A stretch of DNA of 64,000 nt, taken from contig NZ_CP066308.1 in assembly GCF_016406105.1 (NCBI RefSeq), positions 1,833,501-1,897,500 on the forward strand. The letters run 5' to 3'. Position numbers and translations under genes: made by a program. The notes under the pieces were generated by a model, which was not told the origin of the DNA, did not search any database, and was given only the letters and a program-made list of their open reading frames with translations. Positions 25,397 to 37,675 of the stretch are shown here, one piece after another. The first letter of the stretch is position 1; each line of letters begins with the position of its first letter. Origin of the DNA: Brevibacillus composti. GTDB taxonomy: Bacteria > Bacillota > Bacilli > Brevibacillales > Brevibacillaceae.

Positions 25397-26935
25397 ATGT
25401 ACGCACGCAGTTATTCCGGAGCAGTCCACGGCATCGAGGGCATGATCGTCACCGTCGAGACCGACATCGCCAATGGCCTGCCGCAATTCGATCTGGTCGG
25501 CTTGGGCGGCTCCGCTGTGAAAGAATCGCGGGACAGGGTGAGAGCAGCCCTGCGCAATTCCGGTTTCGAATACCCGATGCAGCGCATCACGGTGAATCTG
25601 GCGCCGGCCGACCTGCGAAAAGAGGGCTCCGGCTTCGACCTGGCCATCGCGATGGGCATCTTGCTCGCATCCAAGCAGATTCCCAAACGGGAGGAAGCCA
25701 TCTTGCTGCTAGGCGAACTGGCCCTGGACGGTTCCCTGCGCCCGGTCAGCGGAGTATTGCCGACGCTGCTCCAAGCCCAAAAAGAAGGCTTTACCCACGT
25801 GATTATCCCCGCGGAGAACGCCGCCGAAGCGAGACTGGCCGATCTCGCCGTGCTCCCTGCCGCCCATTTGGCCGAGGCCGTCCGCTATTGGACGACTGGA
25901 TTGGAGGCGCCCGAAGCGGCAGAGAGCGAGCCGCAGAATAATCCGCTGACACAAAACACCCACGACTTTTCCTATGTCTACGGCCAAGCCTTTGTCAAAA
26001 GGGGCCTCGAAGTAGCGGCGGCAGGCTTTCACAATGTTCTGCTCGTGGGTCCCCCCGGCTCCGGCAAAACGATGCTGGCCACCTGCCTGCCGACCATCAT
26101 GCCGCAGATGAATGTGGACGAATCCTATGACGTGACGAAGATCTACAGCATTGCCGGACAGTTAACGGGACAAGCCGGACTGATTCGGGAGCGGCCGTTC
26201 CGTGCCCCGCACCATACCGTGACGATGCCCGCTCTCGTAGGCGGGGGAGGGCAGAGCCCGCGGCCGGGCGAGTGCAGTCTGGCTCACAGAGGAATCCTGT
26301 TTCTCGACGAGCTGCCGGAGTTTTCCCGGCATGTGCTGGAAGCGCTCAGGCAGCCGCTGGAGGCCGGTGTGGTGACCATCGCGCGGGCGAAGCATGTCTT
26401 TACCTACCCTGCCCGATTCCTCTTGGTCGCATCTCTCAACCCATGTCCCTGCGGCTTTTACGGCTCCAAAGACCAGCGCGAGTGCACCTGCACGCCGCCG
26501 CAGATTCAGCGGTATCGGGCGAAGCTGTCGGGTCCCCTGCTGGACCGGATTGATCTGCATTTGGAGGTGCCTCGCGTGCCGGTCCAGCATTTGCATGAGC
26601 GGAGGACGGCGGAGTCGTCGGAGACGGTGCGCGGACGAGTAGAGGCCGCGCGGGAAATCCAGCAAAAGCGCTACGCCCACCGGCCGGCGACTCCGTTCAA
26701 CAGCACGATGAGCGGGGAAGAGCTGCGCCGCTTTGGCCAATTGGACAGCGAGGGACAAGACCTGCTCCACCTCGCTTTTGAGACGCTGGGGTTAAGTGCC
26801 CGGGCGTATGACCGGATCGTCAAGGTCGCGCGCACGATCGCCGATCTGGAGCAGTCCGAGCGAATTCAGGCCGCACACGTGGCGGAAGCCATCCGTTATC
26901 GTGCGTTGGACCGCTCCCTGCTCGCGCTATCCTAA
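25397..26935 (+). CDS. comM: Mg-chelatase-like AAA+ ATPase ComM (YifB)
   Basis: ComM is a helicase-like AAA+ protein that promotes branch migration during natural transformation in Gram-negatives; the Firmicute role is less clear. The 512-residue protein has an N-terminal Lon-S5-like domain (about 1-150), a Walker A LLVGPPGSGKTM (about 214-225), a Walker B ILFLDELPEF, and a Cys-containing NPCPCGFYG loop. The C-terminal lid ends in AEAIRYRALDRSLLAL. AGAGAGGTGAT precedes the ATG. The last 85 bases of the gene are duplicated at 30807-30900, bounding an island. Confidence 0.94.
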   Translation: MYARSYSGAVHGIEGMIVTVETDIANGLPQFDLVGLGGSAVKESRDRVRAALRNSGFEYPMQRITVNLAPADLRKEGSGFDLAIAMGILLASKQIPKREEAILLLGELALDGSLRPVSGVLPTLLQAQKEGFTHVIIPAENAAEARLADLAVLPAAHLAEAVRYWTTGLEAPEAAESEPQNNPLTQNTHDFSYVYGQAFVKRGLEVAAAGFHNVLLVGPPGSGKTMLATCLPTIMPQMNVDESYDVTKIYSIAGQLTGQAGLIRERPFRAPHHTVTMPALVGGGGQSPRPGECSLAHRGILFLDELPEFSRHVLEALRQPLEAGVVTIARAKHVFTYPARFLLVASLNPCPCGFYGSKDQRECTCTPPQIQRYRAKLSGPLLDRIDLHLEVPRVPVQHLHERRTAESSETVRGRVEAAREIQQKRYAHRPATPFNSTMSGEELRRFGQLDSEGQDLLHLAFETLGLSARAYDRIVKVARTIADLEQSERIQAAHVAEAIRYRALDRSLLALS

Positions 26936-26986
26936 AATTTTCTTACTCACACCAGATTTTTATGTGGATGATGACCATCGGTTTCC
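26851..26986 (+). repeat. Left copy of the comM 3'-end direct repeat
   Basis: Bases 26851-26944 match 30807-30900. A 44-base core is identical (26869-26912 with 30825-30868), with single-base indels and mismatches on both sides. A second block, 26942-26986, matches 30973-31019 with several changes. The repeat spans the comM stop codon and adjacent downstream sequence, resembling the ends of an integrated or recombined island. Confidence 0.85.
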
Positions 26987-27241
26987 GGTTCCTGTAGCTC
27001 CTCTTTTCAACACCAACGTTTACCGAAAGATCACTAGTGTTGCAAGTAATGTAGTCAAAATCTACAAAAGATTCGGTTCCATCTTGAGCTTTGTAAAAAA
27101 ACCATGGAATGGTCAGGGAGTTTCTGTCCAAACCCATTGAAAGACCTCACGTAGTGCCTTTAGAATTTTCTCTTTGGTTCGGCTTAATTATTTTTCAGCA
27201 CCGTGCGCGTGAACGGTATATTACGTTACGGAATTTCTTTC
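26987..27241. other. Gene-free start of the island
   Basis: This AT-rich stretch after comM has no convincing gene. A minus-strand frame of 64 codons (26943-27137) includes WFFYKAQDGTESFVDFDYI, which looks protein-like, but it has no clear ribosome binding site and runs into the repeat. It may be a remnant. The merR promoter begins at 27242. Confidence 0.4.
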
Positions 27242-27273
27242 TTGACCTTTACACTAATGTGAAACTTTATAAT
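27242..27273 (+). promoter_or_regulatory. MerR-type promoter with a 20-bp spacer
   Basis: TTGACC (27242-27247) and TATAAT (27268-27273) are separated by 20 bases, longer than the usual 17. This is typical of promoters twisted into an active form by MerR regulators. The spacer holds an imperfect dyad, TTTACAC-TAA-TGTGAAA. It lies just before the merR gene, implying autoregulation. Confidence 0.7.
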
Positions 27274-27306
27274 AAGGATAATCTCCCCAATCTGCGAGGT
27301 CATCCT

Positions 27307-27690
27307 TTGAGAATCGGAAAGGTAAGAAAATTAACTGGAGTTAGTGCCCGTTCGATTCGTTATTACGAGGAAAAAGGATTGATCAAAGCATCTCGTCAAG
27401 AAAATAATTATCGGGTATATGACGAGAATGTGATCGAATCCACTAACACCATTCAACTTTATCTGGGTTTAGGGCTAACCACAGAACAAATTAGAGACAT
27501 TATCTTCTGCAAATATCCTGAGCGCCAGGAGCATAAAGAAAAGGACGTTTATTGTGAAGAGTTACTGCTTATGTATGAGGCGAAGATGCTTGAGATCAAC
27601 CAACAAATAAATGCTTTAACCGATGCGAGAGAAAAATTGGCTGAGAAAATCAAGCAGATGGAACAAAAACGGGAGGAGGAAAACAAATGA
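27307..27690 (+). CDS. MerR-family transcriptional regulator
   Basis: The 127-residue protein begins with the MerR DNA-binding domain: IGKVRKLTGVSARSIRYYEE, then GLIKASRQENNYRVYDE. A dimerising coiled coil follows (about 85-125). TTG at 27307, preceded by GAGG, is chosen as start because it begins the conserved domain; the open frame from 27109 would add an unrelated N-terminus across the promoter. Two cysteines (IIFCKY and DVYCEE) might sense redox or metals. It overlaps the reductase gene by four bases. Codon use is more AT-rich than the neighbours. Confidence 0.85.
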   Translation: MRIGKVRKLTGVSARSIRYYEEKGLIKASRQENNYRVYDENVIESTNTIQLYLGLGLTTEQIRDIIFCKYPERQEHKEKDVYCEELLLMYEAKMLEINQQINALTDAREKLAEKIKQMEQKREEENK

Positions 27691-28505
27691 CCATATTAGT
27701 GACAGGAGCAACAGGGACCGTAGGACGGCATGTTGTGGATCAACTTATACAAAGGGGCCAAAAGGTACGAGCATTGACACGTAATCCTCTGCAAGCCAAT
27801 CTTCCTCATGATGTAGAAGTTGTAGCTGGAGATTTAAGTGATCCAAGTACGCTAGTTCCCGCGTTGGTTGGCGTAAGCGGCATGCATTTGATTACAACAG
27901 GTGCCGAATATACGCCATTACAAACGGGTCCAGAAATCATTGAACTAGCTGAGAAGGCTGGGGTGCGCAGAGTTACCGTTTTATGGAACGGAGAGAAAGG
28001 CCCTTTTGAGAGGGCAGTTGAAGCAAGTAGTCTGGAGTGGACTCAACTGCAAGCCTTTGAATTTATGGCAAATGCACGAAAATGGGCAAACTCTATACGC
28101 TCTGAGGGGGTTGTTCGCGATCTGTTTGGAGGATCACGAATTGCCCCTGTTCATGAAGCGGATATTGGAAAAGTCGCATCGATTGTACTAACCGAGAAGG
28201 GTCATGCAGGTAAAATATATGTACTAACAGGGCCAGAGAGTTTGTCGGTGCAAGATAAAGTCCGGATCATTGGTGAAGTGATTGGACGAGACATTCAGTA
28301 TATAGTGAGCTCCGAAGAAGAAGAACGTGAACAGATGAGAAGAATGGGTGTTCGGGAGGATGCAATTGATTATGTGATCCGTTGGCACCTTAATCCGCCT
28401 AAATCTGTTAGTACGGTACTGCCCACGGTTGAGGAAGTAACGGGACAAAAACCATCCACTTTCGCAGAGTGGGTTAAGGAAAATGCAAAACTTTTTGTTA
28501 AATAA
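27687..28505 (+). CDS. NmrA-type NAD(P)-binding reductase
   Basis: This 272-residue Rossmann-fold protein of the extended short-chain dehydrogenase group is related to NmrA and to quinone oxidoreductase QorB. The cofactor motif GATGTVGR is at residues 7-14, and RALTRNP after the second strand favours NADP. No Tyr-x3-Lys catalytic pair is obvious. The start overlaps merR (ATGA), so the two are one transcript. Pairing with a MerR regulator suggests a stress-induced reductase for quinones or electrophiles; substrate is unknown. Composition is lower in GC than surrounding core genes. Confidence 0.82.
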   Translation: MTILVTGATGTVGRHVVDQLIQRGQKVRALTRNPLQANLPHDVEVVAGDLSDPSTLVPALVGVSGMHLITTGAEYTPLQTGPEIIELAEKAGVRRVTVLWNGEKGPFERAVEASSLEWTQLQAFEFMANARKWANSIRSEGVVRDLFGGSRIAPVHEADIGKVASIVLTEKGHAGKIYVLTGPESLSVQDKVRIIGEVIGRDIQYIVSSEEEEREQMRRMGVREDAIDYVIRWHLNPPKSVSTVLPTVEEVTGQKPSTFAEWVKENAKLFVK

Positions 28506-28784
28506 AAAAGTATACACGAGAAATAGAACGCATCGCTGGCAAAGATGAATTGAGACATCGGCCGGGAGTATTTTGTGTGGACCGATAAAAAATGAAATTG
28601 GGAGCTGTAAGAGTCTTCTTGGCCCATTTTCCTTCGCCGCCTTTTGCGAACCTTGCAAGAAACACGCTGGAAGTCCCTTACCCCTTTACCCCAAAAACCC
28701 ACTCATTTCCATAATAGTGGACACTTTAAATTATACTGTCGTTTTGTTCCAACTCCCCCCCAAAAATGCAGATAACCATGCACG
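28506..28784. other. AT-rich spacer between the reductase gene and the insertion sequence
   Basis: No gene is supported here. Open frames on the minus strand (28224-28658, 28370-28702) are low-complexity shadows reaching into the reductase gene. The segment TAGTGGACACTTTAA at about 28717-28731 recalls ends of some IS3-like elements, but a partner was not found. Confidence 0.35.
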
Positions 28785-30652
28785 GAAGGGGCTGTCCAAT
28801 AAGTCCCCAAAATAAAAAGTTGGGCGGAAAAACGTAATGTTTTCCGTCCAACTTTTTTGTGCGGCTGCTTTTGCAGGAAAGTAGCGAGGCGGATGCCTGC
28901 CACTTTCAATAGATTGTGGGCCAATGCCACAATCCCAAACTCGACGTGAACCTTGTCCAGCCCCCGTAAGGAGAACCGTCGGAACGACCGGTTGCCCTTG
29001 AGGTGACCGAACACGCTTTCTACCTCCACTTTACGCCGAGCATAGATCGCGGACTTCTCGTCATCCTCAAGGGCTCTTTTGGCCTTTGCCTTTAACTCTT
29101 CCCATATCGTGTTCCAGTGTACCTGGCGATTCCCTTTTGCTTTGGTGCACGAGAGCTTGAGCGGGCAATCGCTACAATCCTCACATTCATAGATCTTGAA
29201 GCTTTGCTCCAGGCCAGAAGCGTTTTTTTTCGTCTGGTATTTCTTAAAGCGAACGTATCGACCATTCGGGCAAACAAAGCGATCATCCTGCTCTTCATAC
29301 GTCCAGTTGGAAGCGTGCCGGATGTCCTTCTGGTATCGTCGGGTTTTCTCCTTCAAATAGTTGCCGTAGGGTATGAGAAACTCAAATCGCGGCTGTTTTT
29401 CTTCGCCCATCGCATACAAGTAGTTTTCCTCGCTGCCATAGCCAGCGTCGGCAATCACGGTTTTGGGCATCGGCAACGAAGACGCCGCCAATCGCTCCAT
29501 ATGCGGAATAAAGCATCGTGTATCCGTAGGACGCTGATGGATGCTGTAGAACAAAACAAACTGGTTTTCCGTGGCCATTTGCACATTGTAGCCTGGCTTC
29601 AGTTGGCCATTTTTCATGTGATCTTCCTTCATGCGCATAAACGTGGCGTCCGGATCGGTTTTCGAGTAGCTGTTGCGATCGCCAAAGCAGGCTTTCTGCT
29701 GCTCATACTTGGCGAAGCGAGGAAGGAAATCCTTCCGAATCTGTTTCAGCGGCCTCTTCAAGGCACTGCGCGCTTTGCGCAAGGCTTTCCGCTCTTCGCT
29801 GCCGCTGGTCTGCGTGAGCTGTTCGGTTAAGCCTTCGACTCTTTCCTCCAGCACGGCCGCTGCTTCTTCGAGCTTGGCAGGGAGCTCTTCCGGGTCTGCC
29901 GCTGCATATTCGCCAGCTTCTTGCTGCGTGAGCGTATGAATATGCGCAAGGGTGGCCTGCACCTTTTCCTTGAGCTTTTCCTCGAAGCGAAGCGTGGATT
30001 TTTTCCACACAAAAGAGTACTTGTTCGCATCGGCTTCAATCTTTGTGCCATCCAAAAAGTACTGCTCCATCGAAATGTAGTTGTCCGCGATGAGCTTGCG
30101 GATCATCGTTTCAAACAGTTCGTCCATGAACGCTTTCATGCGCACGCCGCGAAAATCGTTCAAGGTACGGAAGTCAGGCTGCTGCATCGCCGCCAGCCAC
30201 ATGGCCGGGAGGTTCTCACGCAACAGCTTTTCAATACCGCGGCAGGAATAAACCTTTTGTGAGTAGCCGTAAAGGATCACCTTAAGCATCATTTTGGGAT
30301 GGTAGGAACTGCGGCCTCCGCCCGTGTAATGAGCAAACAACTGCTGATCCGGAATGGCTTCGATCATTTCATCAATGACACGAGCCACATGATGGGTGGG
30401 AACATACATCTCCAAATCCAGAATCATCTGAGCCTGCTTGTTATCGTACGGTTTGAAGGTAGGGGCAAGATGTCGCGTGGGCATCATTTTTTCTTCCACA
30501 TCCTGTAGAGGAAGAGCCAGTTGCATGGTATAATCATGATTAGTAGTCGTCCGATTACGCAAGAAAATCGTCCTTTCTTGAATTGGTAGTGTGGTAACTT
30601 CCATTTTACAAGAAAAGACGGTTTTTTTGTGCTTATTTTTTACATTCAACAA
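28703..30652 (-). CDS. IS1182-family transposase (DDE, DUF772 N-terminus)
   Basis: This 649-codon frame has the N-terminal DUF772 segment (HPKMMLKVILYGYSQKVYSC), a coiled-coil linker (about 235-300), and the catalytic core with LDGTKIEADANKY, VIADAGYGSEENYLY and the C-terminal KVEVESVFGHLKGNRSFRRF (Glu of the DDE triad). A Cys-rich block CEDCSDCPLKLSC lies near residue 495. No strong ribosome binding site marks the start; ATGs at 30604 and 30526 are alternatives. The frame runs about 28 codons past the left inverted repeat into flanking DNA, so the C-terminal tail (about residues 622-649) is host-derived. Confidence 0.88.
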   Translation of the reverse strand: MLNVKNKHKKTVFSCKMEVTTLPIQERTIFLRNRTTTNHDYTMQLALPLQDVEEKMMPTRHLAPTFKPYDNKQAQMILDLEMYVPTHHVARVIDEMIEAIPDQQLFAHYTGGGRSSYHPKMMLKVILYGYSQKVYSCRGIEKLLRENLPAMWLAAMQQPDFRTLNDFRGVRMKAFMDELFETMIRKLIADNYISMEQYFLDGTKIEADANKYSFVWKKSTLRFEEKLKEKVQATLAHIHTLTQQEAGEYAAADPEELPAKLEEAAAVLEERVEGLTEQLTQTSGSEERKALRKARSALKRPLKQIRKDFLPRFAKYEQQKACFGDRNSYSKTDPDATFMRMKEDHMKNGQLKPGYNVQMATENQFVLFYSIHQRPTDTRCFIPHMERLAASSLPMPKTVIADAGYGSEENYLYAMGEEKQPRFEFLIPYGNYLKEKTRRYQKDIRHASNWTYEEQDDRFVCPNGRYVRFKKYQTKKNASGLEQSFKIYECEDCSDCPLKLSCTKAKGNRQVHWNTIWEELKAKAKRALEDDEKSAIYARRKVEVESVFGHLKGNRSFRRFSLRGLDKVHVEFGIVALAHNLLKVAGIRLATFLQKQPHKKVGRKTLRFSAQLFILGTYWTAPSVHGYLHFWGGVGTKRQYNLKCPLLWK

Positions 30653-30703
30653 AAACGGGGCGCCCAGAAGTCAGTTTATGCTGACTTTCTGGACAGCCCC
30701 TTC
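28785..30703 (-). mobile_element. IS1182-family insertion sequence
   Basis: The element is bounded by inverted repeats: GAAGGGGCTGTCCA at 28785-28798 and its complement TGGACAGCCCCTTC at 30690-30703. Similarity extends imperfectly over about 24 bases. It carries one transposase on the minus strand and is about 1.9 kb long. No target duplication is visible next to the repeats. The right end cuts a truncated XRE regulator. Confidence 0.85.
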
Positions 30704-30806
30704 GTTATTTTCCAGTACCTCAGCCAACTTTCTCAGATTCGGAAGGCTTACTTTCATCTTGTTTTGTTCGGCTAACCGTAAAAACACAACGCTCAAACCA
30801 GTTGCA
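30704..30806 (-). pseudogene. Truncated XRE-type regulator fragment
   Basis: The minus strand encodes TGLSVVFLRLAEQNKMKVS and then LPNLRKLAEVLEN, which fits the end of a Cro/C1-type helix-turn-helix domain. The N-terminal half is missing where the comM repeat begins, and the C-terminus is cut by the insertion sequence. It is a remnant and not a working gene. Confidence 0.6.
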
Positions 30807-31019
30807 GCAGCCCGAGCGCATTTTGGCCGCACACGTGGCGGAAGCCATCCGTTATCGTGCGTTGGACCCTCTCTGTTCGCGCTATCATAAAAATTTTCTT
30901 TCATAATGAAATAAAATATATATTTTTCTTATGATGATTTCTTTTCTACAATCAGGATAACGTCAGGTTGCCCTTACTAACACCAGCTTTGATGTGGATG
31001 AGGTCTGACAATCGGTTTT
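30807..31019 (+). repeat. Right copy of the comM 3'-end repeat (comM remnant)
   Basis: Bases 30811-30868 still encode PERILAAHVAEAIRYRALD, matching the ComM C-terminus with Gln to Leu and Ser to Pro changes. A one-base loss then shifts the frame. The downstream block 30973-31019 matches sequence just after intact comM, but a 72-base AT-rich stretch (30901-30972) separates the two blocks here. Confidence 0.85.
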
Positions 31020-31094
31020 CGAGGAGGAAGGGGGACGATTCCATACGCCATCATAGAGAGAGTAGTTGCGTCACCATATGAGGGAGGCTATGAA
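31020..31094 (+). other. Leader before the asparaginase gene
   Basis: This short spacer contains two purine-rich runs, GAGGAGGAAGGGGG (about 31020-31033) and GAGGGAGG just before the start. No clear SigA promoter is visible here; one may lie in the AT-rich 30901-30960 segment. Confidence 0.3.
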
Positions 31095-32084
31095 GTGAAA
31101 AAAATTGTAATCTTGGCATCAGGTGGCACCATTTCGGGCAGCGGCCTTACAGCGCTCGATTTTAAAGATTACAAGACCGGGTCTTATACGATTGAGGATA
31201 TTACCCGCAGCGTACCGCAGCTGGCGGATCTGGCGGAGATTACCGTCGAACAATTGTTTAACATCAGCAGCTGTGACATTACATCCGAGCATTGGATCTT
31301 CATCAAACAGAGAGTGGAACACTATCTGATCGAGAGAGGGTATGACGGGGCTGTCATCACCCACGGCACCAACACACTGGAAGAGAGCGCCTACTTTCTT
31401 AACTTGACGCTTGCGACTGACAAGCCTGTCGTGTTTGTCGGCTCGCAGCGACCGCTGGATGTGCTGGGCTCCGATGCCGGCATCAATTTGCACCGCGCCG
31501 TACGGGTGGCCGTCGATGAACAATCGCGGGGCAAAGGCGTGCTGATCGTCTTAAATGACGAAATTAACGCCGCTCGCGAAGGGACCAAAACGAACACGTA
31601 CCGGCTTCAGACCTTTCAATCCGGTCAGATGGGATTGCTTGGCTACGTGGACATCGACGGGACGGTTCAGTACTACCGCGAGCCGGTTCGCAAGCATACG
31701 ATTCATTCGCGTTTCTCACAGGTGCCGCTGCAGGCGCTGCCGGAAGTGGCCATCGTGTACTCCTACCTGGGAGCAAAGGGCGACGTGATCCGTTATCTGA
31801 CCGAATCCAAGCGTTACCAGGGCATTGTCGTAGCGGGGACGGGCGCCGGAAAGGTTTCCTCGGACGAGGAGCTTGCCTTGGCAGAGGCATCGCGGCAGGG
31901 AATCTTCGTTGTCCGCAGCAGCCGTGTGGGCAATGGCCGAGTGACCGCCTTGAATCAATACCAGGGCTATGGTTTTGTCACGGCCGATAATTTGCTTCCG
32001 CAAAAAGCGAGAATCTTGCTGATGCTGGCTCTTCTCGAAACGAATCAGAAAGACGCGATCCAACAATTCTTCCACGAATATTAA
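31095..32084 (+). CDS. Asparaginase (L-asparaginase/Glu-tRNAGln amidotransferase D fold)
   Basis: Asparaginase hydrolyses L-asparagine to aspartate and ammonia. The 329-residue protein has the first active-site motif LASGGTISG (Thr near residue 12) and the second, VITHGTNTLEES (about 86-97). The SQRPLDVLGSDAGINL stretch is also conserved. No signal peptide is seen, so the enzyme is probably cytoplasmic. GTG at 31095 follows GGGAGG. Downstream lie a LysR regulator and a tricarboxylate transporter in the same direction. A role linked to them, such as making aspartate from an imported or shared carbon source, is speculative. Confidence 0.92.
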   Translation: MKKIVILASGGTISGSGLTALDFKDYKTGSYTIEDITRSVPQLADLAEITVEQLFNISSCDITSEHWIFIKQRVEHYLIERGYDGAVITHGTNTLEESAYFLNLTLATDKPVVFVGSQRPLDVLGSDAGINLHRAVRVAVDEQSRGKGVLIVLNDEINAAREGTKTNTYRLQTFQSGQMGLLGYVDIDGTVQYYREPVRKHTIHSRFSQVPLQALPEVAIVYSYLGAKGDVIRYLTESKRYQGIVVAGTGAGKVSSDEELALAEASRQGIFVVRSSRVGNGRVTALNQYQGYGFVTADNLLPQKARILLMLALLETNQKDAIQQFFHEY

Positions 32085-32168
32085 CGAATCATTCACACCT
32101 GCTTTCCTTCTTTTTTTCTCGTTTCGTTACAATGGATGAATAGACGGAAAGAATAGGGGTGGATACTG

Positions 32169-33050
32169 TTGGACAGCAAGGATTGGTACCTGCTGCAAAT
32201 ACTGCACGAAGAGAAAAATATTACGCGGGCAGCCGAGCGGATGTTTATCTCGCAGCCGGCTTTAACCTACCGAATCCGGCAGCTGGAAGAAGAATTTGGC
32301 GTCACGATTTTGTTCCGAAACAAGCGAGGGATATCCTTTACGCCCGAAGGAGAGTACATCCTGGACTACGCCCGGCAGATGCTGTTGCAGCTGCAGAAAG
32401 CCAAAGAGCATCTCGCCCAGTTAAGCCATGAGGTGACGGGCCAATTGCGGCTGGGTGTTGCCAGCAACTTCGCATATTACCGGCTGCCGCGGATCCTCCG
32501 GCATTTTCATGAGATCTACCCGAAGGTGCAGGTTAATTTGTACACCGGGCTCAGTGCGGATATGTTTCATTTGCTCAATAATGAACAGATTCACATCGCG
32601 ATCATTCGCAGCGAATATTACTGGACGGAAGAGAAGCATCTTGTGGATGAGGAAGCGATGTGCATCATCTCCAGCAGCGAGTTTGCATTTGCCCAAATCC
32701 CTCAGCTTCCCAAAATCAATTACAAGACCGATCCCAAGCTGAAAATTCTGCTGAACAGCTGGTGGCAAGAACATTTTGATACGCCGCCGCTGGTCACCAT
32801 GGAAGTAGACAACGTCGAAATCGCCAAAGAAATGGTCCTGAACGGATTGGGGTACGCGATCATACCGGAGACTTGTCTAAAGGACAGCGATCAGCTGCAT
32901 AAGTCTACTCTCCGCTGGAAAACGGGTCAGCCCGTGGAAAGAAAAACATGGATGATGTATGCCAATGCCACGACCAAGCTGCGCCCGGTGCAGGCTTTCA
33001 TCGAATTTGTGAAAGAACATGTTTCGCCAGACAGAAAAAGAGGCGAATGA
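32169..33050 (+). CDS. LysR-family transcriptional regulator
   Basis: The 293-residue protein has the N-terminal winged helix of LysR proteins: NITRAAERMFISQPALTYRI followed by QLEEEFGVTILFRNKRG. The periplasmic-binding-like effector domain spans about 90-290. TTG at 32169 is preceded by AGGGGTGG. It is 60 bases upstream of tctC and points the same way, unlike the common divergent layout. It probably controls the tct genes and may sense a di- or tricarboxylate; this rests on position only. Confidence 0.9.
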   Translation: MDSKDWYLLQILHEEKNITRAAERMFISQPALTYRIRQLEEEFGVTILFRNKRGISFTPEGEYILDYARQMLLQLQKAKEHLAQLSHEVTGQLRLGVASNFAYYRLPRILRHFHEIYPKVQVNLYTGLSADMFHLLNNEQIHIAIIRSEYYWTEEKHLVDEEAMCIISSSEFAFAQIPQLPKINYKTDPKLKILLNSWWQEHFDTPPLVTMEVDNVEIAKEMVLNGLGYAIIPETCLKDSDQLHKSTLRWKTGQPVERKTWMMYANATTKLRPVQAFIEFVKEHVSPDRKRGE

Positions 33051-33110
33051 TAGATTGCCAATAATTTTCAGAAGGTTTGAAAAAGTGGATTTAACAGGGA
33101 GGTCATCCGA

Positions 33111-34136
33111 ATGAAAAAAATGCTTGGCACGATATTGCTTACCACACTCATGTCCGTCAGTTTGGCAGGCTGCGGCTCGGGCGAAAAAGGCCCAGCCTCG
33201 CCGGAAGCGGCGAAACCCTCCGGCTATCCTGAAAAGCCGATCGTCATCGTGGCTCCATCCGGAGCGGGCGGGGGATGGGATATGACTGCCCGATCGACCG
33301 CCAAAATTCTCTACGACACCAAGCTCGTCGATCAGACGATTACGGTCGAGAACCGGCCGGGCGGTGGCGGGGCCGTGTTCCTTGCCGAATATATGGCCAA
33401 GGATACGAAAAACCCCTACAAGCTGTTTGTCAGCTCGCCTCCGATCATCATCGACAATAACAAAAAAGAGGGGAACAACCCGTATGGGTACAGAGATGTC
33501 ACTCCGCTCGCCCAGCTGACCAAGGATTTTGGCGCTTTCGTGGTCAGAAGCGACTCGCCGATCCAGGATATGCAGGGCGTGATCGATGCGGTCAAGAACG
33601 ACCCGACCAAGGTGACCATCGCCGGCGGCTCTTCACCAGGCTCCATGGACCATCTGATCGCCATCTTGCCTCTGTACAAGTCCGGCGTCGATCCCAAAAG
33701 CGTCAAATACGTCTCCTATGAAGGCGGGGGAGAGGCGATGACAGCCCTGCTCGGCGGAAATGCGGACGTCATCGCTACCGATGCTTCGGGTGTGGGCGAA
33801 TATATGAAGGCAGGCAACATTCGCGTGCTGGCGGTTACCTCTCCGGAGCGCCTTAGTGGAGAACTGGCGTCGATCCCTACGCTGAAGGAGCTCGGCCTCG
33901 ATGCGGAATTCACCATTTGGCGCGGCCTTTTTGGTCCCAAAGAAATGCCGAAGGAAGCACTCGCCTATTGGGATGAGAAATTGAAAGCCCTTTCGGAAAA
34001 ACCAGAGTGGCATGAAGAGTTGAAGACGCGCGGCTGGGAAGCACAATATCTGAACTCGGAACAATTCGTGGAGTTTCTCGGCGAGCAGGATCAGTTGATC
34101 ACGGAAATGCTGAAAGCGCTTGATATGGCGAAGTAA
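33111..34136 (+). CDS. tctC: Tripartite tricarboxylate transporter substrate-binding lipoprotein TctC
   Basis: TctC captures the substrate outside the membrane for the TctAB permease. The 341-residue precursor has a lipoprotein signal ending in the lipobox LAGC (Cys near residue 21). The mature part shows the family features YPEKPIVIVAPSGAGGGWDM, NRPGGGGAVF, and ITIAGGSSPGS-like ligand loops (here VTIAGGSSPGSMD). GGGAGG precedes the ATG. It heads tctCBA. Substrate specificity (citrate, tartrate, aromatic acids or others) cannot be told from sequence. Confidence 0.92.
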   Translation: MKKMLGTILLTTLMSVSLAGCGSGEKGPASPEAAKPSGYPEKPIVIVAPSGAGGGWDMTARSTAKILYDTKLVDQTITVENRPGGGGAVFLAEYMAKDTKNPYKLFVSSPPIIIDNNKKEGNNPYGYRDVTPLAQLTKDFGAFVVRSDSPIQDMQGVIDAVKNDPTKVTIAGGSSPGSMDHLIAILPLYKSGVDPKSVKYVSYEGGGEAMTALLGGNADVIATDASGVGEYMKAGNIRVLAVTSPERLSGELASIPTLKELGLDAEFTIWRGLFGPKEMPKEALAYWDEKLKALSEKPEWHEELKTRGWEAQYLNSEQFVEFLGEQDQLITEMLKALDMAK

Positions 34137-34153
34137 GTGTTTTTTCCGGAATA

Positions 34154-34200
34154 AAGGGGGCAGGGGGGAAAGGAGATCGACCTTCTCTCCGCCCCTTCAA
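34154..34200 (+). promoter_or_regulatory. Long imperfect intercistronic hairpin between tctC and tctB
   Basis: AAGGGG near 34154 can pair with CCCCTT near 34192, with further pairing of GGGGAAAGGAG and CTTCTCTCC inside. No long T run follows. Such structures often lower expression of membrane subunits relative to the binding protein; inferred. Confidence 0.45.
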
Positions 34201-34218
34201 GGCTTAGGGGGGAGAGGT

Positions 34219-34677
34219 ATGAATAAACAGTTTGATCGGTATAGCAGTCTCTTTTTTGCCATTCTCGGCCTTGGATTTGTTTATGAAAGTCAATTCATCT
34301 CCAAAAGCTCGTATGGAAGCAATGTCGGACCGGATATATTTCCGCTCGGCTTGGGACTGGTTCTATGCATTCTCAGCCTGCGTCTCTTCTATGAGACCTT
34401 TGGCTACAAACAGGAAAAGAAAGCGGGCACATCCTTTGATGTAAAGCGGTTCTCAGGAATTCTTGCCGTGTTTGTCCTCTACGCTCTCACGCTCGAGGCG
34501 CTGGGCTATGTGATCAGTACTTTTCTCTTTCTGTTCATCGCGTTTCAGTTGATGGAGAGAGGAAATCTGGGCAAGACAGCGATGGTGGCGGGCATTTTTT
34601 CCGGCGGCGTTTACTATGTCTTCGTCAACGTCCTGGAAGGTTCTTTACCCGGCTTTCCTGAGTGGTTGATAGGGTAG
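34219..34677 (+). CDS. tctB: Tripartite tricarboxylate transporter small membrane subunit TctB
   Basis: TctB is the four-helix small subunit. The 152-residue protein has hydrophobic helices at about residues 10-26, 39-55, 78-98 and 100-145 (the last region includes a break). The family motif GPDIFPLGLGLVL is at about 38-50. The ATG at 34219 follows GGGGAGAGG; the longer frame from 34120 begins inside tctC and is rejected. It lies 15 bases upstream of tctA. Confidence 0.88.
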   Translation: MNKQFDRYSSLFFAILGLGFVYESQFISKSSYGSNVGPDIFPLGLGLVLCILSLRLFYETFGYKQEKKAGTSFDVKRFSGILAVFVLYALTLEALGYVISTFLFLFIAFQLMERGNLGKTAMVAGIFSGGVYYVFVNVLEGSLPGFPEWLIG

Positions 34678-34692
34678 GAGGGGAGAGGAATC

Positions 34693-36216
34693 ATGGGTAC
34701 ACTACACTTTCTCGCGGACGGCTTCTCGATCGCTCTCCAGTGGCATAATCTCGTGTTTGCGTTTTTGGGCGTGCTGATCGGCACAGCCGTCGGCGTCCTG
34801 CCCGGCATCGGACCGATCAGCGGGGTGGCGCTGCTGATTCCGGTGACGGCCACGTTGACCAGCGGGCTGGGACCGGAAGCCGCAGCGACCAGCGCGATCA
34901 TTTTGCTGGCCGGGGTGTACTACGGAGCGATGTACGGAGGCTCCACGACATCCATTTTATTGAATACGCCCGGCGAGTCCTCCTCAGTGGTGACGACGCT
35001 GGATGGCTATCAGATGGCTCGGCAGGGCAGGGCGGGAGCTGCGCTCTCGATTGCCGCGATCGGCTCTTTTATCGCAGGTATCGTCGCCCTGATCGCGCTC
35101 GTCTTTCTGGCGGAGCCCCTGTCCAAGCTGGCGCTGCAATTTGGCCCGGCGGAATACTTCTCGCTGATGATCCTCGGGCTGTGTGCAGTCAGCGGACTGG
35201 CAGGCAAATCGATGACCAAATCACTGATCATGACCGTGCTGGGGCTGCTTCTGGCGACGATTGGCATGGATACGGTATCGGGCGTGGCGCGGTTCACGTA
35301 CAACATCCCGATCCTCTACGGCGGACTGGAGTTTCTCACGCTGGCCGTCGGTTTGTTTGCCTTGAGCGAAGTCTTCAAGAATATACTGGAGCCGAATCAG
35401 GACGGCGAACTGGCCAAAATCGAGAGAATCCTGCCGACCAAAAAGGATTTGAAAGACAGCGCCGCGCCGATCGCCCGAGGGTCGATTCTCGGCTTTTTCA
35501 TCGGGATCCTGCCTGGTGCGGGCGCGATTGTCGCTTCCTTCTTTTCGTACATCCTGGAAAAGAAGATCAGCAAGAATCCGGAGAAATTCGGCACAGGCGC
35601 GATTGAAGGAGTGGCGGCTCCGGAGTCGGCCAACAACGCCGCATCCGGCGGGGCGATGATCCCGCTGCTGACGCTGGGCATTCCCAGTACCGGCACGACC
35701 GCTGTTCTCATGGGCGCTTTTATCATGTACAATGTGCAGCCGGGCCCGATGCTGTTTACCGAGCATCCGCAGATCGCCTGGGGCGTGATTGCCAGCATGT
35801 TTGTCGGAAACATGATGCTGCTGATTCTCAACCTGCCCTTGGTCCGCATTTTTGTCAAGATCATCGAAACCCCGAGAAAATTCCTGCTTCCGATGATCCT
35901 GGCCATTTCCGTCTTCGGCGTATACGCTGTCCAGGCCACCACCTTTGATTTAATCCTGCTGATCGCCTGCGGTATCGCCGGCTACTTTCTGGCAAAGAAT
36001 GACTTTCCGCTGGCGCCGATCGTCTTGGGGCTCGTTCTCGGTCCGATGATCGAAAACAATTTGCGCAGGGCGCTGACGGCCTCCAACGGCGATTACCTGG
36101 TTTTTTTGCAAAAGCCGATCTCCCTTTTGTTCCTCAGCCTCGCCTTGCTGTGGATCATCGTTCCACTGCTGCTGAAGCTGCGGGGAAAAAATGTCCTGGT
36201 GAACGACGAGTCCTGA
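34693..36216 (+). CDS. tctA: Tripartite tricarboxylate transporter large membrane subunit TctA
   Basis: TctA is the large channel-forming permease, here 507 residues with about 11-12 transmembrane helices. It shows the duplicated motif of the family: GVLPGIGPISGVALLIPVT (about 36-54) and GILPGAGAIVASFFSYI in the second half. YGGSTTSILLNTPGE and ALLTLGIPSTGTTA-like segments (here PLLTLGIPSTGTT) complete it. GGAGGGGAGAGG precedes the ATG. A strong terminator lies after the stop. Confidence 0.94.
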   Translation: MGTLHFLADGFSIALQWHNLVFAFLGVLIGTAVGVLPGIGPISGVALLIPVTATLTSGLGPEAAATSAIILLAGVYYGAMYGGSTTSILLNTPGESSSVVTTLDGYQMARQGRAGAALSIAAIGSFIAGIVALIALVFLAEPLSKLALQFGPAEYFSLMILGLCAVSGLAGKSMTKSLIMTVLGLLLATIGMDTVSGVARFTYNIPILYGGLEFLTLAVGLFALSEVFKNILEPNQDGELAKIERILPTKKDLKDSAAPIARGSILGFFIGILPGAGAIVASFFSYILEKKISKNPEKFGTGAIEGVAAPESANNAASGGAMIPLLTLGIPSTGTTAVLMGAFIMYNVQPGPMLFTEHPQIAWGVIASMFVGNMMLLILNLPLVRIFVKIIETPRKFLLPMILAISVFGVYAVQATTFDLILLIACGIAGYFLAKNDFPLAPIVLGLVLGPMIENNLRRALTASNGDYLVFLQKPISLLFLSLALLWIIVPLLLKLRGKNVLVNDES

Positions 36217-36255
36217 CGAGAAGGGGAGAAATGCCCCTTTGATCAGATAAAAAGC

Positions 36256-36287
36256 AACCCCCACTGCATGATCGCAGTGGGGGTTTT
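36256..36287. terminator. Bidirectional terminator between tctA and ktrB
   Basis: AACCCCCACTGC (36256-36267) and GCAGTGGGGGTT (36274-36285) form a perfect 12-bp stem with a six-base loop. It lies between two convergent genes and likely serves both. Confidence 0.88.
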
Positions 36288-36295
36288 CGCGGTCG

Positions 36296-37654
36296 CTATT
36301 GGCCGATGATGATCCGTTCTTTTGGATAGTGATAGGAAACCGCATAGTCGTCTTTTTTCAAGAAGAGCAGCAGGTTGATAATCCCGATCCGTCCGATCAC
36401 CATCATGAGAATCAGGATCAATTTGCCCGCGCTGCTGAGCTCAGGGGTGATGCCCATGGACAAACCCGTCGTACCAAAGGCGGAACAGACCTCAAACAGG
36501 ACCGGGGCGAGCGGCAACCCCTCGATCCACATCAGCGAGATGACTGCCGTCAGCACCAGCACGATGGCGACGAAAAAGACGATAAACGAGCGCATGATAT
36601 CTTCGTCGACCAGCTCTCTGCCGAATACTTTTACATCTTTTCGGCCCCGCATGTAAGAGGCGACGGTGACGACTAGAACAAAAAGAGTCGTCGTCCGAAT
36701 CCCGCCCCCTACACTGCTGGGAGAGGCGCCGATAAACATCAGGATGGAGAGAACCATCACCGTCGGCGTGGTCAGGATGCTGCTGTCCATCGTCGACAGC
36801 CCGGCGCTGCGCGTGGTCACTGATTGAAACAGGGAGTAGAAGAGCGATTCATGCCAGCTCTTGCCTTGGAGAAAAGCCTCTCTTTCAAACAGGAAAAAAA
36901 GCAGTGTCCCCAGCACAATCAGCAGAAAAAAGGTAATTGTTGTAATTTTTGTGAATAGGGAAAAGGTGAATCTTCGCCCCACTCGGCGATGAGCCAGCCA
37001 ATTCCGCAGCTCGATCAGGACAGGGAAGCCCACAGCACCGCAAAGAATTAATCCCATGATGATCGTCTGCAGGATGTAATCATGGGAAAAATCATGCAAG
37101 GAGTTGCCGTAGATGTCAAAGCCGGCATTGGTAAACGCGCTGACTGCGGCAAAAAAGCCGTAATAAAACGCTTCATACCAGTTCTGGTGATAACCGGCGA
37201 TGAGAAAATAACTCCCCAGCAGGATCGTTCCTGCCACTTCAATCACGACAGCGAGGACGAGGATGTTTCGCATCAGTTCCACCAACCCCGCCAGAGTCGG
37301 CCGGTTGTGGTCGGTCGCGATCCACTTGCGATACTCCAGTCCGATCCGCTGCCCGAGCATCATCCAGAAAAATGTGCCCAGCGTCATGATGCCGATCCCG
37401 CCGATTTGAAAGAGCAGCGCGAGCAGGATCACCCCCCGTTGGTTAAACACCTCGTGGATGGTAACCACATTCAGACCCGTTACGCTGATCGCGCTGGCCG
37501 CGGTAAACAGCGCATCGATAAAGGAAAGATGGACGCCAGGAAGCTGGAAAAAAGGCAGCCAGAGCAAAAAGGAAGCGATCAGTACACTGGCCACATACAA
37601 GAAAACAATGATTTGAACGGAACTAAACTTTCTTTTGTTAAAGGTGAGCGTCAA
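36296..37654 (-). CDS. ktrB: KtrB/TrkH-type potassium uptake channel subunit
   Basis: This membrane protein conducts K+ (with Na+ in Ktr systems) and normally works with a cytoplasmic KtrA gating ring. The 452-residue protein has four M1-P-M2 repeats, each with a filter glycine: AISVTGLNVV, AFTNAGFDIY, VTTRSAGLST and FGTTGLSMGIT. The minus-strand TTG at 37654 is chosen because a perfect AGGAGG lies nine bases upstream; the longer frame would place that site inside codons 3-4. No ktrA is next to it, as with the orphan KtrD of B. subtilis. Confidence 0.88.
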   Translation of the reverse strand: MTLTFNKRKFSSVQIIVFLYVASVLIASFLLWLPFFQLPGVHLSFIDALFTAASAISVTGLNVVTIHEVFNQRGVILLALLFQIGGIGIMTLGTFFWMMLGQRIGLEYRKWIATDHNRPTLAGLVELMRNILVLAVVIEVAGTILLGSYFLIAGYHQNWYEAFYYGFFAAVSAFTNAGFDIYGNSLHDFSHDYILQTIIMGLILCGAVGFPVLIELRNWLAHRRVGRRFTFSLFTKITTITFFLLIVLGTLLFFLFEREAFLQGKSWHESLFYSLFQSVTTRSAGLSTMDSSILTTPTVMVLSILMFIGASPSSVGGGIRTTTLFVLVVTVASYMRGRKDVKVFGRELVDEDIMRSFIVFFVAIVLVLTAVISLMWIEGLPLAPVLFEVCSAFGTTGLSMGITPELSSAGKLILILMMVIGRIGIINLLLFLKKDDYAVSYHYPKERIIIGQ

Positions 37655-37675
37655 AAAAAACGGCCTCCTGATCAA

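Follow-up and report, generated by a model that had tools for sequence, protein, structure and literature searches.

A probable scar of a lost serine-recombinase element beside an intact comM gene in Brevibacillus composti

Elements that cut comM and integrases divided at their attachment sites

According to Durrant et al. 2022 (PMC10083194), 12.4% of predicted site-specific integrases have magnesium chelatase homologs as their target, and targets are enriched in competence genes. The large serine recombinases (LSRs) treated there represent a like element family with a magnesium chelatase/comM-family target; the locus described here differs in being a decayed end beside an intact comM, and the portions of that paper compared here mention neither a split integrase-XRE gene nor leftovers. 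In Acinetobacter and other Gram-negatives comM is likewise cut by mobile elements, AbaR and others (PMC11472951, PMC4774983), but those are Tn7-like and other elements, whereas here LSR elements in Gram-positives are concerned, and the leftover comM halves may be fossils of recovery. Some mobile elements have been argued to evade removal by transformation via disruption of competence genes, comM included (PMC4774983), and recovery of comM by recombination has been proposed, with no excess over chance (PMC11472951). That LSRs target the magnesium chelatase/comM gene, and that comM is hit in Gram-negatives, is already in print.

A second set of likenesses concerns attachment sites that lie inside a coding gene of the element. 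In the integration-dependent immunity of mycobacteriophages (PMC8092301) attP is inside a DNA-binding regulator gene and the phage and prophage proteins differ, as they appear to do here, but tyrosine integrases and a separate repressor operate there, whereas here a recombinase-XRE fusion would be cut and its XRE part moved to the far end of the prophage. In archaeal suicidal integrases of the SSV1 type (PMC8371274) the att site is inside the integrase gene, which is split by integration, as seems to happen here; those are tyrosine recombinases and are inactivated, whereas the serine recombinase considered here would retain about 530 residues, as far as the junction, and shed an XRE tail. A serine recombinase adjoining a magnesium chelatase-related gene, as here, is also described for Wolbachia phages of the WOcauB2 type (PMC5447182), which belong to another phage group and are likened by description, not by sequence. 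A near neighbour of the idea of a split LSR-XRE gene is a note on the Streptomyces phage Tubberson, in which integration-dependent immunity with a serine integrase was proposed by synteny. Among open-licence PMC papers we found none on a recombinase-XRE gene split at attP and none on phage Harrison together with attP, and the matches listed there for Brevibacillus with comM held nothing related by title.

The repeated comM end and the XRE fragment

The window, the whole 64-kb stretch of Brevibacillus composti DNA that was analysed, comes from a contig of 4.46 Mb and contains an intact comM (YifB/Mg-chelatase-like, 512 aa, 25397..26935, plus strand), with yraN as upstream neighbour as in several relatives. 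A preliminary description of this DNA reported that the comM gene end and its flank recur 3.9 kb away with a 44-base identical core, and alignments and shuffles uphold this. In a gapped alignment with 1-base indels, the last ~29 codons of comM (copy 1, 26847..26944, plus strand) match copy 2 (30803..30900, plus strand) at 90% over 99 columns; the direct repeat 26847-26912/30803-30868 is 92% identical over 66 nt, and the local score of the repeat is 144 against a best of 35 among 500 dinucleotide shuffles. The downstream flank is repeated as well (about 45 bases, 26945..26987 and 30976..31021, both on the plus strand), resuming in copy 2 past an insert at 30901..30975 (plus strand). Its match scores 46 against a top of 34 in 2000 shuffles, or 54.5 against 51 under laxer scoring, and it is genuine, though weaker than the main repeat. 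A query of 321 bases from the comM 3' end matches just these two places genome-wide, with no third. Copy 2 is a dead piece of comM codons ~484-512, frameshifted as the preliminary description had said, although the insert that splits it measures 75 bases and not the 72 given there. A tblastn match that put copy 2 at codons 464-505 was discarded, as it had overrun into the neighbouring XRE sequence; the DNA repeat begins at codon ~484.

The earlier reading also took the comM 3' end for an attachment site. An element integrated at the extreme 3' end would have rebuilt the gene end and displaced the old copy 3.9 kb away, and the direct repeats, with intact comM at one edge and a gene-end copy at the other, have the look of such an event. 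However, the repeat continues beyond the stop codon into the flank, no integrase is present among the scanned ORFs, and the gene joined to copy 2 lies, in relatives, at a site inside comM close to codon 347 (NPCPCG). The repeat has no integrase beside it and does not amount to an att core that stops with the gene, both of which an island of that kind should show, and we regard integration at the 3' end as extremely unlikely.

The sequence fused to copy 2 is an XRE fragment of 33 aa (30712..30811, minus strand, by alignment), 82% identical to residues 64-96 of an XRE gene adjoining a comM fragment in genome G001 and 61% identical to a gene of G012. At the deletion junction of XRE and the comM 3' piece (comM'), which alignments place at 30803..30812, the sequence is TGCAGCAGC in the window, as in the XRE relatives, and TGGAGCAGT in comM copy 1. 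The DNA upstream of copy 2 matches XRE relatives that directly precede comM 3' fragments in G001, G020, G024 and G022, and XRE relatives also stand at the ends of large comM-cutting insertions in G012, G006 and G005. Between G001 and G020, identity per 50 bases is 66-96% on the XRE side and 98-100% once comM' is reached, and between G024 and G022 it falls from 93-100% to 81-94%; in both pairs no more than about 50 bases separate the switch from the junction, which fits site-specific joining.

The other end of these insertions carries an LSR. In G012 an LSR of 546 aa ends at the comM 5' half, and at least 16 genomes among 398 of the class hold such an LSR with 50-73% identity over about 500 residues of the query, a count from which partial matches in G002 and G005 and the additional matches of G006 and G012 are excluded. 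In all 16 listed genomes the LSR abuts comM cut near codon 350 (12 at the 5' half, four at the 3' half). The XRE gene is present in 12 of 17 LSR genomes, that is, the 16 listed and G005, and was not found in the other five searched (G110, G069, G063, G169 and G338). There are 15 XRE places in all, two of which (L200, L201) are without comM, and in 12 of the 12 genomes holding both genes the best XRE place abuts the comM half complementary to that of the LSR. The two genes lie on different contigs in G005, G026, G057 and G259; of the eight pairs on the same contig, seven are on one strand and span 43-130 kb, while in G322 the parts are 1.7 Mb apart on opposite strands.

Because of this complementary arrangement, 30712-31021 is very probably what decay has left of the attR of an LSR-borne prophage or island, now lost, that was once integrated inside comM. 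Against this reading stand the shortness of the XRE match, the five LSR genomes without XRE together with the separated parts in G322, and the fact that neither an LSR nor a codon-347 junction is left in the window. The preliminary description had proposed a decayed integration scar whose integrase is gone, and at comM this is borne out by the XRE-comM' fusion: a Pfam scan finds no serine or tyrosine recombinase in the four ORFs between the copies, and the five PF07508 places of the genome are all outside the window, which also has no tRNA. The window has XRE beside the complementary comM half, with only a piece of each remaining, and no LSR beside a comM half, so that it is a remnant rather than a member of the comM-targeting family. 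If the comM 3' end had simply been duplicated locally and IS elements had then been active there, the XRE piece would be coincidental. Duplications are common and the genome has nine IS1182 copies, nearly identical where compared; set against this, XRE relatives adjoin comM in every one of the 12 partnered genomes and in four genus members with leftovers, and this explanation seems very improbable.

The site of the presumed integration is placed by homology, as the window has no LSR and the codon ~347 junction with its CCTTGTCC-like core, present in relatives, is deleted from it. The NPCPCG codons, where LSR elements cut comM in relatives according to their junctions, are uninterrupted in the window sequence (26438..26455, plus strand). 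An LSR element may first have integrated inside comM near codon 347, giving the order comM 5' half, LSR, element, XRE, comM 3' half. A deletion would then have joined the XRE gene to comM' codon ~484. It would have taken about 63 residues from the start of XRE and also, assuming a cut at codon 347, comM' codons ~347-483. The remainder of the element, recombinase included, may have been lost beside a copy of IS1182, which would end the XRE side. The right end of IS1182 is 11 bases from the XRE alignment, and the XRE piece ends near there; no XRE remainder was found left of IS1182 in the stretches compared. No target duplication is visible by eye in the eight of nine IS1182 copies compared, which makes its absence uninformative as a test of deletion. 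These eight copies tend to have purine-rich left and T-rich right flanks.

Codon 347 is one of two internal comM sites used in the genus, the other being near codon 206-216 (L079-L081 in G022, L082 in G019, L094 in G004), which we take to be just before the Walker A motif. The LSR at that second site in G022 has about 22% identity to the codon-347 LSR family.

A MerR-reductase pair, IS1182 and an XRE fragment do lie between the copies, as the preliminary description had it, but the first of these is probably not island content. The MerR-NmrA segment (27235..28503, plus strand, by Pfam and DNA identity) shares 88% DNA identity with G001 and 82-83% with G025 and G011, none of these matches being near comM, and it is probably a separate import rather than part of the comM element. 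The IS1182-family element (28788..30700, minus strand, ends read from the sequence) is one of the 9 genome copies. The four scanned ORFs are MerR, NmrA, the IS1182 transposase and one without a Pfam match, and Tn7-like transposition genes, as in AbaR-type islands, are not among them. Between the scar and TrkH (36296..37675, minus strand) is a block of asparaginase, LysR and TctCBA-like genes (31095..36216, plus strand), the Tct naming being our assumption; the best match of the asparaginase among 60 relatives, at 63%, is in G008, far from comM. The MerR-NmrA segment, IS1182 and the asparaginase-Tct block all look like separate cargo. In B. borstelensis (G024), whose comM is 81% identical to that of the window, about 140 bases separate comM from TrkH, after which come the genes found from 36296 on in the window; this indicates that 26936-36295 is extra or variable DNA. 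The comparison of this interval in relatives, suggested earlier as a check for insertion, thus yields an empty arrangement in B. borstelensis, but this is another species and its comM locus lacks the asparaginase-Tct block too.

Leftover pieces and the probable restoration of comM

Full-length comM is present in 22 of 26 genomes across the genus, the exceptions being G012, G006, G005 and G022. A protein search identifies an extra comM piece in at least seven of the 22 (G000, G001 twice, G004, G014, G019, G020 and G024), and DNA checks of selected stretches add G010, G008 and G013; the other 12 were covered by the protein search alone. In G010 the leftover is 59 nt at 90%, with LSR scraps, and in G008 it is a weak, inverted match of 87 nt at 79%. 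In G013 an XRE gene lies 2.6 kb downstream of comM and is followed by about 45 bases resembling comM' by eye, called by comparison with G012 and missed by blastn with G013's own comM. The leftovers of G013, G010, G014, G019 and G004 are beside intact comM.

In 17 genomes comM lies 5.9-11.6 kb from sucC. The distance is 14.7 kb in the window, 161 kb in G008, where the extra DNA sits between comM and TrkH, and 176 kb in G010; in G020 the two genes are on different contigs, and in four genomes comM is cut. The DNA between comM and sucC in G010 contains scraps of the comM LSR. In G014 (L095) comM is inverted relative to sucC, with an XRE-comM' leftover in between, and G002 has a broken comM-family LSR (G002:C1:2403072-2404480) about 12 kb before an intact comM.

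An intact comM in the window today implies that a gene once cut was probably restored, a step that we consider somewhat favoured. The likeliest route is that comM DNA from a close relative came in, recombined with the comM 5' half at one side and joined element or IS DNA at the other, the old 3' half remaining as a scar. The leftover in G019 is the mirror image of the window scar: it consists of the comM 5' half and 366 bases of upstream flank, with 95% identity over 1029 bases. One-sided homology combined with an illegitimate join of the incoming comM DNA would yield both kinds of leftover. A comM mosaic was sought as proof of restoration and set aside, as sliding identity along comM gave no clear recombination tract.

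A variant of the remnant reading, and a real rival, is that comM was never cut here and that a circular element, carrying a comM 3' end and flank, entered through one crossover with comM, which would yield intact comM, element, XRE and comM' in a single step. Elements of this kind may be suggested by the XRE-comM' pieces of G001 and G024, which are unlike the host comM and stand away from it, and by the comM' pieces of G001 and G020, which are 100% identical over 514 nt. In the window, however, copy 2 is nearest to the host comM (the 44-base identical run), the best foreign matches being 88% over 42 nt and 91% over 32 nt, and the DNA adjoining copy 1 is the unrelated MerR-NmrA segment. We consider entry by single crossover possible but unlikely; its chances overlap those of the attR claim. 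More widely, the comM pieces of G014, G019 and G004 are most like each host's own comM, those of G020, G024 and one of G001 are nearer to the comM of other species, and the second piece of G001 has no match above 71% over more than 200 nt. G001 and G020 belong to different species; about 1.8 kb of their comM' and flank agree at 90-100% per 50 bases, and the XRE genes attached to this DNA differ (L087/L089).

Under restoration after cutting, the half-comM leftovers by whole comM in several species of Brevibacillus could be fossils left when hosts regained the gene, and such fossils could be dated and counted in strain collections. In G022 a CAP12/Pycsar TIR-domain protein is encoded directly after the comM' leftover (L091:7203-8024).

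A recombinase-XRE gene probably divided on insertion

In relatives of the lost element the integrase gene appears to be split in two on insertion. In the IMG/VR contigs L126-L129 the LSR and XRE form one continuous ORF of 686 aa from match start to stop (the L129 contig is the same as L145, and L126 the same as L146). They are also one ORF in the Paenibacillus phage Harrison, 695 aa as annotated, and in L125 they are in frame up to the contig end. In L136, L137, L139 and L140 the reading frame continues past the recombinase without this XRE, and the fusion is therefore not universal. Among the matches listed for the 398 genomes (best 2 candidates per genome) no chromosomal match spans LSR and XRE; chromosomal LSR matches extend to residue 505-553 of the 686 of the query, and XRE is separate.

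The att cores were compared by reading codons on both sides of the junctions, a longest-common-substring search having given spurious words for several pairs. In nine of 11 pairs the LSR frame and the XRE frame read the core in the same codon phase; G057 and G084 gave no clear reading. These observations suggest that free phages carry LSR and XRE as a single in-frame gene, with attP where the two parts meet, and that integration would split it, an arrangement that we did not find in print. An attP within a coding gene whose product differs between phage and prophage thus fits the LSR element family, as judged from sequence. Assignment to the class of suicidal integrases was rejected: the matching families are those of serine, not tyrosine, recombinases, and the chromosomal LSR would keep most of its length after the split, given where its matches end.

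Integration may cut two genes at once, the host comM and the element's own integrase gene, releasing the recombinase from an XRE tail that comes to lie tens of kb away. We speculate, with an even chance of being right, that this separation acts as a physical sensor that sets the direction of recombination or the regulation of the prophage, and that the window is a fossil of the freed XRE end by a later-repaired comM. A split recombinase-XRE gene would give serine integrases a switch that is simple and open to test, and control over their direction is important for gene-insertion tools. No conserved XRE start codon after integration was seen by eye at the junctions of relatives. The dN/dS of XRE is about 0.24 between G012 and G006 and about 0.14 between G001 and G020, low values that speak for purifying selection. 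Four LSR elements are reversed in comM (L148, L152, L157 and L159), which suggests that the core may work both ways.
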